DNA of 64,000 nucleotides from Pseudomonas tensinigenes (lineage in GTDB: Bacteria; Pseudomonadota; Gammaproteobacteria; Pseudomonadales; Pseudomonadaceae), in the NCBI RefSeq assembly GCF_014268445.2, contig NZ_CP077089.1, forward strand, positions 6,552,001-6,616,000, read 5' to 3'. A program made the position numbers and the translations under genes. Below are positions 9,466-60,174 of the stretch, piece by piece; position 1 is the first letter of the stretch, and each line of letters opens with the position of its first letter. A model generated the notes under the pieces. That model ran no database searches, was not told the DNA's origin, and was given only the letters and a program-made list of their open reading frames with translations.

Positions 9466-9600
9466 ATAGGAATGACGTAATCATTTATGGAGGGGGGGAA
9501 ATTAAGCTTTTGGCTTAATGAGGCCGCGCCGCGGAGAAGGCGACAGGATCGCGAACTAATTCGAAAAGGAGTGCGTCGGCGACGGCTAGCAGGGGGCAAT
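9466..9600 (-). ncRNA. rho leader, probable Pseudomon-Rho RNA motif
   Basis: About 200 bases separate the trxA terminator from rho. Read on the minus strand, the leader has a 7-bp hairpin (ATTAAGC-CAAAA-GCTTAAT, 9500–9518), then an unstructured C-run (TTTCCCCCCCTCC, about 9487–9499) directly before rho, plus GC-rich hairpin-forming stretches farther upstream. A conserved structure called Pseudomon-Rho has been described in rho leaders of this genus. Position fits; I cannot run the covariance model. The C-rich single strand could serve as a Rho-loading site for autoregulation (inference). Confidence 0.5.
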
Positions 9601-9662
9601 GGAGAAACCAGTGCGGGGCCGAATGTACCACCTGAGTTTCGGAGCGTCTAGCCCTGAATACG

Positions 9663-47999: not shown

Positions 48000-48032
48000 G
48001 ATCCGGGCAGACTCCTTTCTTCTGCACACAAA

Positions 48033-48068
48033 AAAAGCAAAACCCCGCCAAAAAAGACGGGGTTTTCA
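48033..48068 (-). terminator. Terminator of the cyaY–DUF1289 transcript
   Basis: AAAACCCCG…CGGGGTTTT stem with T-run on the minus strand, between DUF1289 and rnk. Isolates rnk from the upstream pair. Confidence 0.85.
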
Positions 48069-48146
48069 CCAGGCCTCGATGGGTTGAGGCGTGTTCGGAC
48101 ACTATCACAGCTCAAAAAATATACAAGTCACCCACCCGGCCGGCCC

Positions 48147-54893: not shown

Positions 54894-56231
54894 TTACAGG
54901 TTGTAGCCGCGTTCGTTGTGTTGTGCCAGATCGAGGCCAACCGACTCTTCTTCCTCGGTCACACGCAGACCCATGACGGCGTCCAGGACCTTGAGGATGA
55001 TGAAGGTGACGATCGCGGTGTAGATCACCGTGAAGCCAACGCCTTTGACCTGAATCCAGACCTGCGCGCCGATATCGGTAACGGTGCCGAAACCACCCAA
55101 AGCAGGTGCAGCGAACACACCAGTGAGGATTGCGCCGAGGATACCGCCGATACCGTGTACGCCAAATGCGTCGAGGGAATCGTCATAACCGAGTTTGCGT
55201 TTCAGGGTGGTGGCGCAGAAGAAGCACACCACGCCCGCCGCCAGACCGATCACCAGTGCGCCCATCGGGCCCACGGTGCCGGCAGCCGGAGTGATCGCTA
55301 CCAGACCGGCAACCACACCCGAAGCGATGCCCAGCGCGCTTGGCTTGCCGTGGGTGACCCACTCGGCAAACATCCAGCCCAGTGCAGCAGCAGCGGTCGC
55401 GATCTGGGTGACCAGCATCGCCATGCCGGCGGTGCCGTTGGCCGCTGCAGCGGAACCGGCGTTGAAGCCGAACCAGCCGACCCACAGCATCGCCGCGCCC
55501 ATCAGGGTGTAACCGAGGTTGTGCGGGGCCATCGGGGTGGTCGGGAAGCCTTTACGCTTGCCCAATACCAGGCAGGCAATCAGACCGGCGACACCGGCGT
55601 TGATGTGCACCACGGTGCCGCCCGCGAAGTCGAGCACGCCCCAGTCCCACATCAGGCCGCCGTTGCCGGACCAGACCATGTGCGCGATCGGTGCATAAAC
55701 CAGGGTGAACCAGATAGCCATGAAGATCAGCATCGCGGAGAACTTCATCCGCTCGGCGAACGCACCGACGATCAGCGCCGGGGTGATGATCGCGAAGGTC
55801 ATCTGGAAGGTGATGAATACCGCCTCAGGGAACAGCGCCGCAGGACCAGTCAGGCTCGAAGGCGTGACACCGGCGAGGAACGCCTTGCCCATGCCGCCGA
55901 AGAACGAGTTGAAATTGACGACGCCCTGCTCCATGCCGGTGGTGTCGAACGCAATGCTGTAGCCATAAATGACCCACAGGATGCTGATCAGACCGGTAAT
56001 GGCGAAGCACTGCATCATCACGGAAAGAATGTTTTTCGAGCGAACCATGCCGCCGTAGAACAGCGCCAGGCCGGGGATGGTCATGAACAGCACAAGTGCC
56101 GTTGAGGTGAGCATCCAGGCAGTGTCGCCAGAATTGAGGACTGGGGCCGCCACTTCGTCTGCCGCCATAGCAAGGCCGGGCATTACGATAGACAACAGGG
56201 CTCCTAGCCCTGCGAATTTACGCAGAGTCAT
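54894..56231 (-). CDS. amtB: Ammonium transporter AmtB
   Basis: 445 residues. Signal sequence (ALLSIVMPGLAMAADE) followed by 11 membrane helices; the substrate path residues around GGTVVHINAGVAGL (first pore His) and DAFGVHGIGGILGA (second His) are intact. Imports ammonium; blocked by GlnK. Follows glnK at 38 bases in the same operon. Confidence 0.96.
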   Translation of the reverse strand: MTLRKFAGLGALLSIVMPGLAMAADEVAAPVLNSGDTAWMLTSTALVLFMTIPGLALFYGGMVRSKNILSVMMQCFAITGLISILWVIYGYSIAFDTTGMEQGVVNFNSFFGGMGKAFLAGVTPSSLTGPAALFPEAVFITFQMTFAIITPALIVGAFAERMKFSAMLIFMAIWFTLVYAPIAHMVWSGNGGLMWDWGVLDFAGGTVVHINAGVAGLIACLVLGKRKGFPTTPMAPHNLGYTLMGAAMLWVGWFGFNAGSAAAANGTAGMAMLVTQIATAAAALGWMFAEWVTHGKPSALGIASGVVAGLVAITPAAGTVGPMGALVIGLAAGVVCFFCATTLKRKLGYDDSLDAFGVHGIGGILGAILTGVFAAPALGGFGTVTDIGAQVWIQVKGVGFTVIYTAIVTFIILKVLDAVMGLRVTEEEESVGLDLAQHNERGYNL

Positions 56232-56269
56232 ATTGTTTTCTCCTGGGGCGTTGGGGTTTGTGGCGGCGC

Positions 56270-57022
<753 letters not shown>

Positions 57023-57283
57023 ATGCTCGCGCCCAAAGACTTCCTCGACGCCCTGAGCGGCACCGCCTCCCGCCTCTTCAGCGGCGACACCCCGCTGCCG
57101 AAAGCCGAAATCGAAAGCCAGTTCAAGATGCTGCTGCAGAGTGCCTTCAGCAAACTCGACCTGGTCAGCCGCGAAGAATTCGACAGCCAGATGGTCGTAC
57201 TGGCCCGCACTCGCGCCCGCCTCGAAAGCCTCGAAGCCAAAGTCGCCGAGATGGAAGCCAAGCTGACACCGCCCGCTGAATAA
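57023..57283 (+). CDS. ubiK: Ubiquinone biosynthesis accessory factor UbiK
   Basis: 86 residues. MLAPKDFLDALSGTASRLFS and a C-terminal coiled coil (VVLARTRARLESLEAKVAEM) match the BMFP/YqiC domain. UbiK supports the late ubiquinone-synthesis complex under oxic conditions. Divergent from glnK. Confidence 0.93.
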   Translation: MLAPKDFLDALSGTASRLFSGDTPLPKAEIESQFKMLLQSAFSKLDLVSREEFDSQMVVLARTRARLESLEAKVAEMEAKLTPPAE

Positions 57284-57295
57284 TCCGCGCCCCCT

Positions 57296-57324
57296 GTAGG
57301 AGCTGCCGAAGGCTGCGATCTTTT
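57296..57324. repeat. Single REP unit, family 2
   Basis: One copy of the GTAGGAGCTGCCGAAGGCTG unit seen as a doublet at 29350–29427; no facing partner nearby. It marks the left border of the accessory pocket. Confidence 0.85.
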
Positions 57325-57436
57325 GATCCTCAGCCCTTCAACCATCCCGGCAACGTCCTACAACCTGCACCACCGCCGTCCGATTGCGCCGAAAAGCCCA
57401 GGTTTCTAAGCTCACCCGATGCTGAAAGTTCAGCAC

Positions 57437-57597
57437 CGGGTTTGGCGACCCGAACAGCTTAAGGCGCACGACAACCATGATGGCGGCTACATTTACCGCC
57501 ACATCGTTTCATGGCGGTTGTGCGTGGGAGACCTTCGGGTCTGCCGGGTTCCTTTTGCTCCGGTTCGCCAACCCGCGTACAACTGCCACCCAATCGT
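57437..57597 (+). ncRNA. C4-like antisense RNA upstream of Bro-N gene
   Basis: A compact fold is visible. A closing stem CGGGTTTGGCGA (57437) pairs with TCGCCAACCCG (57565). Inside lie a stem GCGCACgACAACC/GGTTGTGCG, a hairpin GGCGG/CCGCC, and a UUCG hairpin (AGACC-TTCG-GGTCT, 57530–57543). The conserved GCGTACAACTGCCACCC tail follows. This layout and sequence resemble the C4 family, the antisense RNA of phage P1/P7 that blocks antirepressor translation. Two segments pair with the region next to the downstream start: GCTTAAGG (57457) with CCTTAAGC (57620), and GTTCCTTTTGC (57548) with GCAAGAGGAAC (57626), which covers the ribosome-binding site. Rfam assignment is from memory. Confidence 0.75.
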
Positions 57598-57619
57598 TTG
57601 GCGACGATTGAGGGCAGCC

Positions 57620-57637
57620 CCTTAAGCAAGAGGAACT
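57620..57637 (+). promoter_or_regulatory. Target site for the C4-like RNA over the Bro-N ribosome-binding site
   Basis: CCTTAAGC (57620–57627) and GCAAGAGGAAC (57626–57636) are adjacent and match the complements of two leader segments. The second forms 11 pairs with one G·U, and flanking bases add an A–U and a G·U. AGAGGA, the likely Shine–Dalgarno sequence 8 bases before ATG 57643, lies inside. Confidence 0.72.
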
Positions 57638-57642
57638 GCTCA

Positions 57643-58170
57643 ATGAATCAAGAAGAGACTTATCTGACCCCGCACATCTTTACCCGCCACAAACTCCCCC
57701 TCCACGCCCTCCTCATCCAGAACCAACCCTGGTTCTGCGCCCGAGACCTGAGTCGCCTGCTACACATCTACCTCAACGAACGCATGCTGCGAAAACTCGA
57801 CCCCGACCAATACCAGACCCGCAAAACCCTGATCCACAATCAAATCGAAAACACCCTGCTGATCAGCGAATCCGGCATCTACGCCCTCCTCGTCTACCAC
57901 TACTGCCCCGAATACCGTGCGCTACGCGAATGGCTCACCCACCAGGTCATCCCCACCCTGCGCGACGCCCAACACCCCACCACAAGCGAACGTCCACACC
58001 TCAGCTTGCTCAGTTGGCCGGACATGACGTTGAGTTTGTTGCACTGGAATAACCAGCCGTGGATACGGCTGCAGGATGTGCCGTTGATGGTGGTGGAACG
58101 GGAACAGACCAAGCGCCCAATGACGGGGCCATGGTGGAAAAGAGCTTCGCGGATGCTGCAATCGCTATAA
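57643..58170 (+). CDS. Bro-N domain protein, phage antirepressor-like
   Basis: 175 residues. Bro-N features are clear: ALLIQNQPWFCARDLSRLL, then LLISESGIYALLVYHY and REWLTHQVIPTLRD (residues ~25–110). A second short repeat of the entry motif (MTLSLLHWNNQPWIRLQDVP) follows, then a basic tail. Bro-N proteins act as antirepressors or DNA-binding regulators in phages. I start at ATG 57643, behind AGAGGA; the frame opens earlier but overlaps the C4-like RNA. No other phage gene nearby. Its end overlaps the convergent HigA gene by 6 bases. Confidence 0.85.
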   Translation: MNQEETYLTPHIFTRHKLPLHALLIQNQPWFCARDLSRLLHIYLNERMLRKLDPDQYQTRKTLIHNQIENTLLISESGIYALLVYHYCPEYRALREWLTHQVIPTLRDAQHPTTSERPHLSLLSWPDMTLSLLHWNNQPWIRLQDVPLMVVEREQTKRPMTGPWWKRASRMLQSL

Positions 58171-58434
58171 ACCCGCATGCCGGAACTGGGCTCTGCGCAA
58201 ATCGTAAGTCGATTGGAGATTCATCCAGAACTCAGGCGTAGTGTTGAGATGAATGGCAAGGCTGATTGCCAGATCGGCGCAGATCCTGAGCTGGCATTTC
58301 ACAAGCTTTTCGATCTCACTTTCGGGCCAGTTCGTGGGCATGGCCAGATCCATGACAGTCATGCCCAACGGCTCCATGAATTCCTTATTCAAAACCTCGC
58401 CCGGATGAATCGGGCGCATACCATTGCGATCCAT
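58165..58434 (-). CDS. Orphan HigA-type antitoxin
   Basis: 89 residues. MRPIHPGEVLNKEFMEPLGM and ITAD-like ADLAISLAIHLNTTPEFWMN followed by LQSTYDLRRA match HigA antitoxins with a helix-turn-helix. A strong GGAGG lies 6 bases before ATG 58434. No HigB toxin frame is found upstream on this strand, where higB normally sits. The HTH is degenerate (AMPTNWPESEIEKLV replaces the usual ALGVP…I). It may be a regulator on its own or a module remnant. Confidence 0.82.
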   Translation of the reverse strand: MDRNGMRPIHPGEVLNKEFMEPLGMTVMDLAMPTNWPESEIEKLVKCQLRICADLAISLAIHLNTTPEFWMNLQSTYDLRRAQFRHAGL

Positions 58435-58531
58435 TTTTCGCCTCCAGAGGCTGCGTTGAGTGGCCAAACTGGAACATCCGACTCCCGGATACAAGACCTT
58501 CACCCCCCTTTCGCCGGCGTCCTACAACTAT

Positions 58532-58546
58532 TAGGGCATGGCCCTA
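58532..58546. promoter_or_regulatory. Palindrome upstream of the HigA gene
   Basis: TAGGGC-ATG-GCCCTA, perfect 6-base arms about 100 bases before the HigA start. HigA proteins often bind palindromes in their own promoter, so this is a candidate operator (inference). Confidence 0.35.
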
Positions 58547-58635
58547 CAAACATCAGCGTCTGCACCCAGTTACGCAGCCCTTACGCATGTCATTACATTG
58601 GCAAACGAAATATGCCCGTCAAGATGGAGGTATCT

Positions 58636-58806
58636 GTGAAAGATAAGAAGAGGAAAGAAAAGCTATTTCAAATTGTTGATTTGCACCTCGAAGCACTCCG
58701 TTTGGCTGGGAATATGTCAGCCAACCAACGGCGATTTATTGAAGTTGCTGTTACATGTGGGCCAGCGCTTGAGCCCAGCGGCGCGCTGGCCGGTAGAAGG
58801 TCCTGA
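58636..58806 (+). CDS. Small protein, paralogue A of a 56-residue pair
   Basis: 56 residues from GTG 58636, with GGAGG 5 bases upstream. Basic start (MKDKKRKEKLF) and a conserved C-half (SANQRRFIEVA, EPSGALAG). Aligns without gaps to the protein at 59831 (24 of 56 identical by eye). The frame extends farther upstream but without a ribosome-binding site. Not recognised; no catalytic motif. Followed directly by a terminator. Confidence 0.72.
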   Translation: MKDKKRKEKLFQIVDLHLEALRLAGNMSANQRRFIEVAVTCGPALEPSGALAGRRS

Positions 58807-58812
58807 GTGAAA

Positions 58813-58846
58813 AATAAAAAAGGCGTCCATAGGACGCCTTTTTTTG
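58813..58846 (+). terminator. Terminator after small protein A
   Basis: AAAAAGGCGTCC-ATA-GGACGCCTTTTTTT stem with long T-run, 7 bases past the stop codon of small protein A. Confidence 0.92.
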
Positions 58847-59262
58847 TTCGGAGGAATAGTCGCAGCGATTCTTTAGCTCCTGGCTTTACGGCCTTGGGTT
58901 CAGAATCCGACAGGCTAGCCCGTCGTCACTACTTCAGAGAAACCAGCTTTCTCTGCTGCCAAAAATGCGGGGGAGCTTTGCTGGTGCCCAGTCCCGACGA
59001 ATGCGCAGTTGCAGTCCTCGAGCGTGAGGATCCTTCAGTACCGCTCAGGAGTCAAAGCTCATTTACGATCGAGAGCAGCGCAAAACCCTCATCCATGCCG
59101 GTATAAAGTATTGCCTCTCCGCCCTCTCACACCCTGAACTGCCATCTCCAACGTCCTTCACTAACGCAAGCACAGTCCTACGAGGACCGTCCCCTACGTC
59201 TGATTACGTAAGCATCAATGCCTTCGATATCGTCTGCATATTGATCCCGACAGAACAAGACG
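58847..59262. other. Gene-free gap in the accessory pocket
   Basis: 416 bases between the terminator of small protein A and the GNAT gene. A weak open frame runs through the terminator into it and is not credible. No tRNA, REP unit or inverted repeat of note; composition is lower in GC than the core genes. Confidence 0.6.
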
Positions 59263-59796
59263 ATGCGAAGAAAAGGCAAAGGTACCGAGCTTCGAAATCA
59301 GACACTCAAATCTGAATCGCGCAAACTTGCACATCAAACAATGTCCATGGACCCAGAAGCCCTGGCAGCTGGAGTTGATACCCTATCACTCAGGATCGAT
59401 CCGATTACTCCAGTAGCAATCAACGCATTCCACCAGTGGACCGGCCCCGTTGGGTATCCCTGGGACGCTGTTTTGGACTGGAAGACCAAAGATGCAAAAG
59501 GGCTGGACTTGGCGTTTTGGTACGAAGAAGAACTGTGCGGACTGTGCTACGCAACGCCGCGAAGAAGCACGATCTGCGTGAAAATCGTTTTACAGGGACA
59601 CACATGCAAGACGAATACCTTGCGGGGCTGGATCGCGCCGATGGCATTGCTGACAACAGAGTTCTACGCCCGGAAGCTGGGGTGCACGCAAATCGAAGTA
59701 CAAGAGCCAGACTCAGGCGCCATTCCTTACTATCAAACGCTGGGATTTTATTTTGATACAACCGGTCGCCTTGTCTTTCCATTGGACGACCAATAA
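59263..59796 (+). CDS. GNAT-like N-acetyltransferase
   Basis: 177 residues. A basic N-terminus (MRRKGKGTELRNQ) and a GNAT-like fold: YPWDAVLDWKTKDAKGLDLA, LCGLCYATPRRSTICVKIV, then a C-terminal helix-strand (EFYARKLGCTQIEVQEP…IPYYQTLGFYFDTTGRL) typical of acetyl-CoA enzymes. The acetyl-CoA loop (Q/RxxGxG/A) is not canonical. The start is uncertain (ATG 59263 or 59341; neither has a strong site). Lies between two paralogous small genes. Substrate unknown. Confidence 0.7.
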   Translation: MRRKGKGTELRNQTLKSESRKLAHQTMSMDPEALAAGVDTLSLRIDPITPVAINAFHQWTGPVGYPWDAVLDWKTKDAKGLDLAFWYEEELCGLCYATPRRSTICVKIVLQGHTCKTNTLRGWIAPMALLTTEFYARKLGCTQIEVQEPDSGAIPYYQTLGFYFDTTGRLVFPLDDQ

Positions 59797-59830
59797 GATC
59801 GAATCAAGCATCCCGGCACGTGAGGTGTTT

Positions 59831-60001
59831 ATGAAGCAGAAGAAGCAGAAAACCCAACCGGCACGGGTGTCCAAACCGGGTACCGAGGCACTCGGTTTGC
59901 CGGACAGAGTTTCAGCCAGTCAGCGACATTTTTTGAAAGTGGCCGCGACCTATGGCAAGGAAATGGAGCCCGACGGTTGGCTCGCCGGTGGTGGAACCTG
60001 A
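59831..60001 (+). CDS. Small protein, paralogue B of a 56-residue pair
   Basis: 56 residues from ATG 59831 after GAGG. Basic start (MKQKKQKTQPARVSK) and the shared C-half (SASQRHFLKVAATYG, EPDGWLAG). Same length as protein A, with identical residues at the S-A-x-Q-R-x-F-x-x-V-A, E-P and G-x-L-A-G positions. Begins 34 bases after the GNAT stop, so it is likely co-transcribed with it, and ends with its own terminator. Confidence 0.75.
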   Translation: MKQKKQKTQPARVSKPGTEALGLPDRVSASQRHFLKVAATYGKEMEPDGWLAGGGT

Positions 60002-60009
60002 GTACCGCA

Positions 60010-60038
60010 AAAATGACCGCCTAACAGGCGTTTTTTTT
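60010..60038 (+). terminator. Terminator after small protein B
   Basis: CGCCT-AAC-AGGCG stem followed by eight Ts, 17 bases past the stop. Confidence 0.88.
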
Positions 60039-60174
60039 ATACCTGCAGGTTATTGTCTCCTGCAACATCCGGTGAAAATTCGCTCATAGAACCCACCTAC
60101 CAACATCCCCTCCCCCGACTACCCTTCAAAAAACCCGCAGGAAGCGGCTCCCCGATTCAGCTCAAGGAACGACC

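Follow-up and report, generated by a model that had tools for sequence, protein, structure and literature searches.

The DNA analyzed here, a stretch of 64,000 nucleotides from Pseudomonas tensinigenes (the window), carries a gene for a Bro-N domain protein directly behind a leader predicted to contain a C4 antisense RNA (Table 1). The protein matches PHROG anti-repressor families, and we infer that it is an antirepressor-type regulator. Pfam searches of six neighboring ORFs identified a BMFP/ubiK-type and a comM-type gene, with no Pfam match for the four small ORFs among them, and the ORF list also includes neighbors that we take to be glnK and amtB. These surroundings look ordinarily chromosomal, and the phage genes that would mark a prophage immunity region do not adjoin the module. 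As ubiK directly precedes comM in 8 of 10 genomes picked for having no Bro-N match (the “empty” gap measuring about 35–245 bp), the interval between the two genes is a variable site.

Several further features of this neighborhood were noted. The content of the ubiK–comM interval (57284–60174) is mixed among close strains. The small gene adjoining Bro-N on the minus strand (58165–58503) is HigA-like by eye; a relative occurs at 54 of 80 Pseudomonas loci, with unrelated sequence at this place in others such as L185 and L189. Two small proteins encoded on the plus strand (58621–58806 and 59828–60001) look like paralogues of one another (SANQRRFIEVA and SASQRHFLKVA), and the ORF between them (59290–59796) is acetyltransferase-like by eye; none of these genes has a Pfam match. 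Elsewhere in the window, Rfam identifies a Pseudomon-Rho element (9523–9623, minus strand) and an rnk leader (48031–48136, minus strand), both ordinary Pseudomonas cis-elements.

Of 199 genomes of the genus, 122 have a homologue of the Bro-N protein, and the ubiK neighbor is kept at 27 of the 30 best of these loci. A scan of named genomes gave 80 Bro-N loci, all from Pseudomonas and many from the P. fluorescens group by name; this set overlaps the set of 30, at least 8 loci being the same DNA. Both ubiK and glnK are kept in 74 of the 80, and 70 of these 74 have a pattern-readable C4. Codon comparisons indicate that purifying selection acts on Bro-N (median dN/dS 0.19, range 0.06–0.27, 21 comparisons over codons 16–175). 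As originally predicted, a C4-family RNA whose loop faces the ribosome-binding site of an antirepressor-like gene thus stands outside any recognizable prophage, and these data support its having been kept in evolution. Bro-N matches with 50–59% identity to the window's protein occur in many other genomes.

Table 1. Features of the Bro-N module, in window coordinates.
Feature	Position	Strand	Basis
Candidate promoter TTGCGC-17-TAAGCT	57384–57412	+	Read by analogy with paralogues
Leader with a1/b1-type targets	57406–57456	+	Weak match to Rfam c4-a1b1 (RF03163)
b1, TTTGGCGA	57441–57448	+	Within leader; same octamer as b2
Originally proposed first segment, GCTTAAGG, a1-like position	57457–57464	+	Perfect complement of 57620–57627
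Presumed exchangeable cassette, a1 to first Bro-N codons	57463–57702	+	Island of divergence between strains
Hairpin immediately 5′ of C4	57481–57501	+	Leader fold
C4 antisense RNA	57507–57593	+	Rfam RF01695, 88.1 bits
a′ (loop of hairpin P3), pairs with a2	57547–57559	+	Complementarity to 57625–57637
b′, TCGCCAA, pairs with b2 and b1	57565–57571	+	Complementarity
b2 target, TTTGGCGA	57597–57604	+	Complement of b′
a2 target, covers Shine-Dalgarno-like AGAGGA	57625–57637	+	Complement of a′
Bro-N domain gene, 175 aa	57643–58170	+	Pfam PF02498, E 1.2e-11

The leader is unusually stable. Its predicted fold (57412–57660) has an energy of −112.5 kcal/mol (z −6.5), which none of 200 dinucleotide shuffles equaled, in agreement with the structured leader originally proposed to end just 5′ of Bro-N. 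The assignment of this RNA to the C4 family had been made to depend on a covariance match, and RF01695 matches over its full length (positions 1–87 of 87, E 4.7e-16), far above the curated cut-off of 45 bits. RNAs of this family are processed by RNase P to about 77 nt, and by inspection the P1 stem of the window RNA begins with GG. Judged by sequence and structure, the window RNA is a true C4 member. Upstream of it, the RF03163 match reaches 33.9 bits against a cut-off of 46.7, and a still weaker isrK match (57418–57493) 24.6 bits against a cut-off of 50. The candidate promoter was placed where several paralogues have TTGTGC-17-TATTGT. Among 145 C4 modules from four genomes, described below, a promoter scan put the best site 120–140 nt 5′ of C4 in 57, and in the window module itself it preferred a site other than that in Table 1. 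By analogy with isrK loci, the hairpin preceding C4 is a possible attenuator or terminator; in 124 of the 145 modules, the 49 nt 5′ of C4 fold more stably than shuffled versions of them do on average.

Two arms of the C4 RNA are complementary to the region in front of Bro-N, with a target over the ribosome-binding site of the downstream gene as expected of the family. The duplex between a′ and a2 comprises 13 pairs, two of them G-U, and its score was reached by 3 of 20,000 dinucleotide shuffles of 57594–57645; the 11-pair duplex first reported here (57548–57558 with 57627–57637) is thus real and extends further. Of the two antisense segments originally placed inside the RNA, that corresponding to a′ was right, the second arm is b′, which had been missed, and the a1/b1 leader had also been overlooked. 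The segment proposed in its stead, at 57457–57464, is indeed a perfect complement of 57620–57627 but lies upstream of C4 rather than inside it; among 33 orthologues with an a′ loop of the window's type, 12 have this pairing intact and 28 keep the a′–a2 site. Used as an antisense to the Shine-Dalgarno (SD) region, the upstream a1 region gave no excess for its own partner in any of the four genomes (z 0.2, −1.3, 0.1, and −0.3), and we rejected this segment as a conserved antisense arm. As for the upstream target copies that accompany C4 RNAs, the b1 octamer is in place in the window while the match of a1 to a′ is poor (rank 24 of 48); across relatives the a′–a1 matching at the Bro-N locus is likewise weak (z 2.3), and the RF03163 match stays under its cut-off.

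The module has many counterparts in its own genome. When 150 of 1764 first-look candidates were scored, the 6.62 Mb single contig gave 48 C4 matches distributed around the chromosome and over both strands, of which 47 exceed the cut-off. The description of the Bro-N gene as “lone” therefore holds only in the sense that no recognized prophage genes adjoin it, as the genome has 48 C4 matches and the family is genus-wide. The gene behind the C4 RNA encodes a DUF6124 protein in 36 modules, Bro-N in 3, DUF3077 in 2, and a member of one of three further small families in 4; the profiles used left 3 unclassified, of which one is a DUF3077 gene by Pfam whose start lies too far downstream for our ORF rule and another ends in an apparent DUF6124 remnant. 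With modules from three further genomes, sets of 48, 37, 30, and 30 were scored for pairing, and these 145 modules comprise 90 with DUF6124, 14 with Bro-N, 9 with DUF3077, 18 with the three small families, and 14 unclassified.

The genes concerned also occur away from C4. Three of the four Bro-N matches in the genome stand behind C4 RNAs, and the fourth (5254826–5255317) has no C4 match nearby. There are 40 DUF6124 matches, of which those at 1109940, 3812067, and 4437757 are not directly behind C4, that at 3812067 following another DUF6124 gene. A single protein (4437742–4437942) matches both DUF3077 and DUF6124, so the two probably form one superfamily; by eye, the three unnamed small families resemble them as well.

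We asked of each module how well its RNA fits its own gene, scoring every a′ loop against every SD region and every b′ against every b2, ungapped and with the loops alone. On both pairings combined, the own partner ranked top for 40 of 48 modules in this genome, the window module included, and for 34 of 37, 21 of 30, and 26 of 30 modules in the three further genomes, leaving 8, 3, 9, and 4 modules, respectively, not top-ranked. In the window's genome, own partners averaged 20.6 on a′–a2 and 17.9 on b′–b2, as against 12.6 and 11.7, respectively, for swapped ones. Across the four genomes, the corresponding z values were 20.0, 17.4, 11.4, and 13.6 for a′–a2 and 17.3, 14.3, 9.1, and 12.0 for b′–b2, and none of 5000 permutations reached the observed means of either pairing. 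An exact 7-nt complement of b′ is present at b2 in 110 of the 145 modules (36/48, 32/37, 19/30, and 23/30, as against swapped-partner means of 2.9, 1.7, 2.0, and 1.4 modules), with 30 different heptamers among them. Both arms fit their own upstream a1/b1 copies too (z 6.1 to 15.2 in the four genomes), b′–b1 being cognate with z values of 15.2, 10.3, 6.1, and 10.1. A first scoring with RNAduplex on wide segments separated own from swapped partners weakly (z −0.5 to −1.5 per pair, own partner top in 3–12 of 48) because wide segments let the conserved stem letters dominate; the narrower score was chosen after this outcome, and the three other genomes were fresh to it, the limits of the segments being moved slightly for them.

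Of seven C4 parts compared, the a′ loop varies most (1.63 bits, the others ranging from 0.34 to 1.07), and within each genome nearly every module has its own, with 47 distinct loops among 48, 36 among 37, 29 among 30, and 30 among 30. Two modules have the same a′ string in 3 of 2664 comparisons within genomes and in 18 of 7776 between genomes, a modest gap in which orthologues inflate the second figure. As far as sequence alone can tell, the C4 modules thus show cognate pairing and near-private codes. Since nearly all modules differ in code, each would silence, or otherwise control, mainly itself. Candidate reasons for keeping codes private are the avoidance of cross-silencing and heteroimmunity towards incoming elements.

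The code also changes at a fixed locus. A C4 is readable in 74 of the 80 Pseudomonas Bro-N loci, with 22 different a′ loops that include the window type and the TTTCGAATTCA type. The SD sites change in step with these alleles (own score 20.6 against 14.6, reached by none of 10,000 permutations), which provides the co-varying pairs across homologues that the original prediction had called for. Ten of the 22 alleles rank top for their own target and 18 are in the top three; among those that pair poorly are the alleles of L236 (rank 17), L199 (rank 13), and L228 (rank 9). An overlapping earlier set of 29 readable loci, with 13 loops, gave z 7.1. On a Bro-N tree (71 rows, 21 a′ alleles) at least 31 allele changes are needed, whereas 200 shuffles needed a mean of 38.8 and a minimum of 35, and the same alleles therefore recur in separate parts of the tree; this count is rough because the tree was built by a quick method that left 25 of its 68 inner branches unsettled.

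Comparison of individual loci in bins of 60 nt locates the change. L178 is 92–100% identical to the window over 56203–57402 and 93–100% over 57703–58422, falling to 83% in 57403–57462 and, across the four bins that make up 57463–57702, to 55, 82, 58, and 72%. L185 and L182, which share the window's allele, are 98–100% identical to it in the three bins of 57463–57642, with several nearby bins at 85–92%. These alignments show a divergent cassette lying between conserved flanks, its ends approximate because of the bin size. The same pattern is seen within genomes, where 28 pairs of modules have gene bodies with an identity of 90% or more, and 26 of these pairs differ in their a′ loop; identity averages 95.2% in the body and 67.2% in the cassette, and one pair of neighboring modules has identical bodies (100%) and cassettes 61.6% identical. 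An island of divergence at a conserved locus implies that it is the RNA code, more than the protein, that changes. We infer that the RNA cassette (a1, a′, and a2) has been swapped as a block between strains, with the gene and its flanks staying in place; cassettes identical between strains could alternatively reflect strong constraint on one allele.

Within the genus, C4 was found in 184 of 199 genomes, the per-genome counts being lower bounds as 20 candidates were scored in many; the four genomes searched deeper, with 150 candidates scored each, gave 48, 42, 30, and 30 matches. Across the class, C4 was found in 24 of 369 genomes, that of the window included, and DUF6124 in none of the 369 but the window's own. 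Apart from the window's genome, the highest counts were in three genomes of other families (G472, G459, and G565), with 10, 6, and 6 C4 matches from at most 11 candidates scored and no DUF6124 match; we take these sets to be separate expansions.

As C4 and Bro-N are phage families, the modules might be relics of decaying prophage immunity regions, with an inherited pairing that is no longer used. DNA similar to the window's C4 is present in 32 phage records, phiAH14b among them, the Bro-N protein has matches below 60% identity in 794 phage records, and the modules at 1091666- and 3390565- look truncated. Against this reading stand the neighbors kept across Pseudomonas loci, the low dN/dS of Bro-N, a pairing that is maintained while both of its sides change, and a tblastn search with one DUF6124 protein, which matched 1 of 50,697 phage records. 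The same protein matched 0 of 72,556 plasmids. We consider such an origin as disused relics very improbable.

The modules carried by viruses follow the same scheme. For C4 modules on viral contigs, with at least 131 distinct leaders, cognate pairing gave z 31.1 with 51 top-ranked, and the scheme is therefore common to phages and the chromosome; some of these contigs may themselves be host DNA, as 34 of 184 loops lead into DUF6124. The isrK model matched two phage loci at 55.2 and 50.8 bits, over its cut-off. When the host C4 set was scored against the viral targets, 63 of 131 leaders reached the lower quartile of cognate scores, compared with a mean of 47.5 and a maximum of 61 in 20 loop shuffles; the mean score was 36.49 against 35.81 for shuffled loops, a shuffling that also destroys the shared SD-complement motif. 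Among at least 119 distinct viral loops read with two b′ patterns, 9 recur in the four host genomes when compared by a loose substring rule, whereas none of at least 184 loops from 181 loci, again with two b′ patterns, equals an allele of the Bro-N locus.

Taken together, we think it likely that the window holds a chromosomal C4 module that keeps its own gene silent, one of about 48 self-coded modules whose codes have been diversified and exchanged. In this model, a single transcript from a promoter near 57384–57412 would carry the a1/b1 leader, C4, the b2 and a2 targets, and Bro-N. The C4 RNA would be cut out of its own transcript, for which phages P1 and P7 and Acinetobacter baumannii provide precedents, and a′ and b′ would then bind the SD region and b2 of the same mRNA in trans, blocking its translation. 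The a1/b1 leader may serve as a decoy that soaks up C4 in trans, as suggested by the isrK precedent. The a1/a′/a2 code would form an exchangeable cassette that is swapped at a fixed locus, exchange being the presumed cause of the island of divergence.

In the window, occlusion in cis is a live alternative, since the minimum-energy fold of its leader does not take the C4 shape and instead pairs 57547–57559 with 57625–57637 within the same molecule. Regulation might then be exclusively in cis, the leader folding back on the SD site as in structure A of isrK (PMC4825925) and C4 never existing as a separate RNA. Only 6 of 145 full leaders fold in this way, the window's among them, and the C4 and downstream piece folded alone does so in 0 of 145 modules, on which grounds we rejected cis folding as a general mechanism. 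C4-like RNAs moreover appear to be processed in A. baumannii, according to the accessible text of PMC5320573. Regulation solely in cis seems to us rather improbable.

A translational block of the kind we favor may also be set against transcription control as in satellite phage P4, where the RNA (CI RNA, with seqA and seqC) acts on elongation and not on translation. The modules share the target–RNA–target order of P4 (PMC4825925, accessible text), many have a hairpin 5′ of C4, and in phage phiAH14b a C4 of 89 bits adjoins genes annotated as AlpA and Rha-like. However, in 43 of 46 modules of the window's genome at least 4 nt of the best a′ site fall within the SD window, positions −15 to −5 relative to the start codon, a placement that would be needless for a pure termination device, and P4-like control is to our minds a distinctly weak contender.

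The presumably silenced gene is in most cases of the DUF6124 family, of which a profile search found 3309 proteins at E ≤ 0.001. An AlphaFold2 model (mean pLDDT 72.3, pTM 0.46) shows a helix hairpin predicted with confidence and an N-terminal half of low confidence; Foldseek found nothing in the PDB better than E 2.3, and we read no function from the model. No paper on DUF6124 by that name was found in the searched non-subscription literature. PADLOC, which covers known anti-phage defense families, gave 0 matches for four module proteins, a result that bears on described systems. The modules could instead be selfish, addiction-like units, in which a harmful small protein is held in check by C4 as an RNA antidote in the manner of a type I toxin–antitoxin pair; each unit would then need a code of its own, as copies must not protect against one another's loss. 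In favor of such a model, the single-gene units are numerous and dispersed, each has a private antisense RNA, and their proteins are in part near-identical; the toxicity of AntQ, from the isrK locus (PMC4825925), also lends addiction some plausibility. The want of PADLOC matches and of a significant DUF6124 fold match argues weakly against it. Against it, too, C4 lies on the same strand as its target, unlike classic type I antitoxins. On balance we regard addiction as unlikely.

The C4 family, its role in phages, and the multi-copy C4-like RNAs of A. baumannii are already known. For phages P1 and P7, the accessible text of PMC12197685 and PMC8198154 gives the precedent of a c4 RNA that is cut from its own transcript and blocks by antisense pairing. 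The window module resembles it in its RF01695 match, its two antisense arms, its ribosome-binding site target, and an antirepressor-like gene that follows the RNA on the same strand, and the heteroimmunity of P1 and P7 is similar to the allele differences at the Pseudomonas Bro-N locus. In contrast to the phage RNA, which controls ant, the Pseudomonas set is chromosomal, numbers 48 matches in one genome, stands mostly before DUF6124, and has specificity cassettes that appear to be swapped at a fixed locus. Like Pseudomonas, A. baumannii AB5075 has multi-copy C4-like RNAs with variable a′ loops (21 copies in Group 1), which seem to be cut out of longer precursors; that study proposed incoming phage or other bacterial transcripts as their targets, and its accessible text names none (PMC5320573). 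In Pseudomonas, cognate matching points to the next gene of the same module, and the variable P3 loop lies on the SD site with b2 upstream, whereas PMC5320573, in its accessible part and assuming that the labels are equivalent, has b′ at the ribosome-binding site. The isrK leader RNA acts on its own mRNA in the orf45-anrP-antQ locus of Gifsy-1, and both this locus and seqA-CI-seqC of P4 resemble our modules in that a single transcript holds leader, terminator, complementary RNA, and, further downstream, a ribosome-binding site; these are single prophage or satellite loci, and the accessible text of PMC4825925 describes no genome-wide set of private codes for them. The searched non-subscription literature yielded no account of a Pseudomonas C4 set, of DUF6124 as its partner, of cognate targets, or of cassette swapping.

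C4, known as a phage immunity RNA, here appears as a genus-wide chromosomal family of gene control, and a concrete answer is suggested, for Pseudomonas, to the question of what multi-copy C4-like RNAs target, namely their own next gene. A regulatory hypothesis is thereby placed on DUF6124. With dozens of natural antisense switches that appear to be orthogonal within a single cell, the set would also be well suited to studying how RNAs evolve their specificity while avoiding cross-talk. More tentatively, and with the odds against it, the modules may make up a repertoire of RNA-coded identities, in which tens of modules with related effectors are each held by their own antisense lock, the codes are swapped like immunity specificities, and the leader or C4 RNA that a phage or satellite brings in would either unlock the one module of the same code or be silenced by it. 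If this were true, Pseudomonas would possess many sensors for few effectors.
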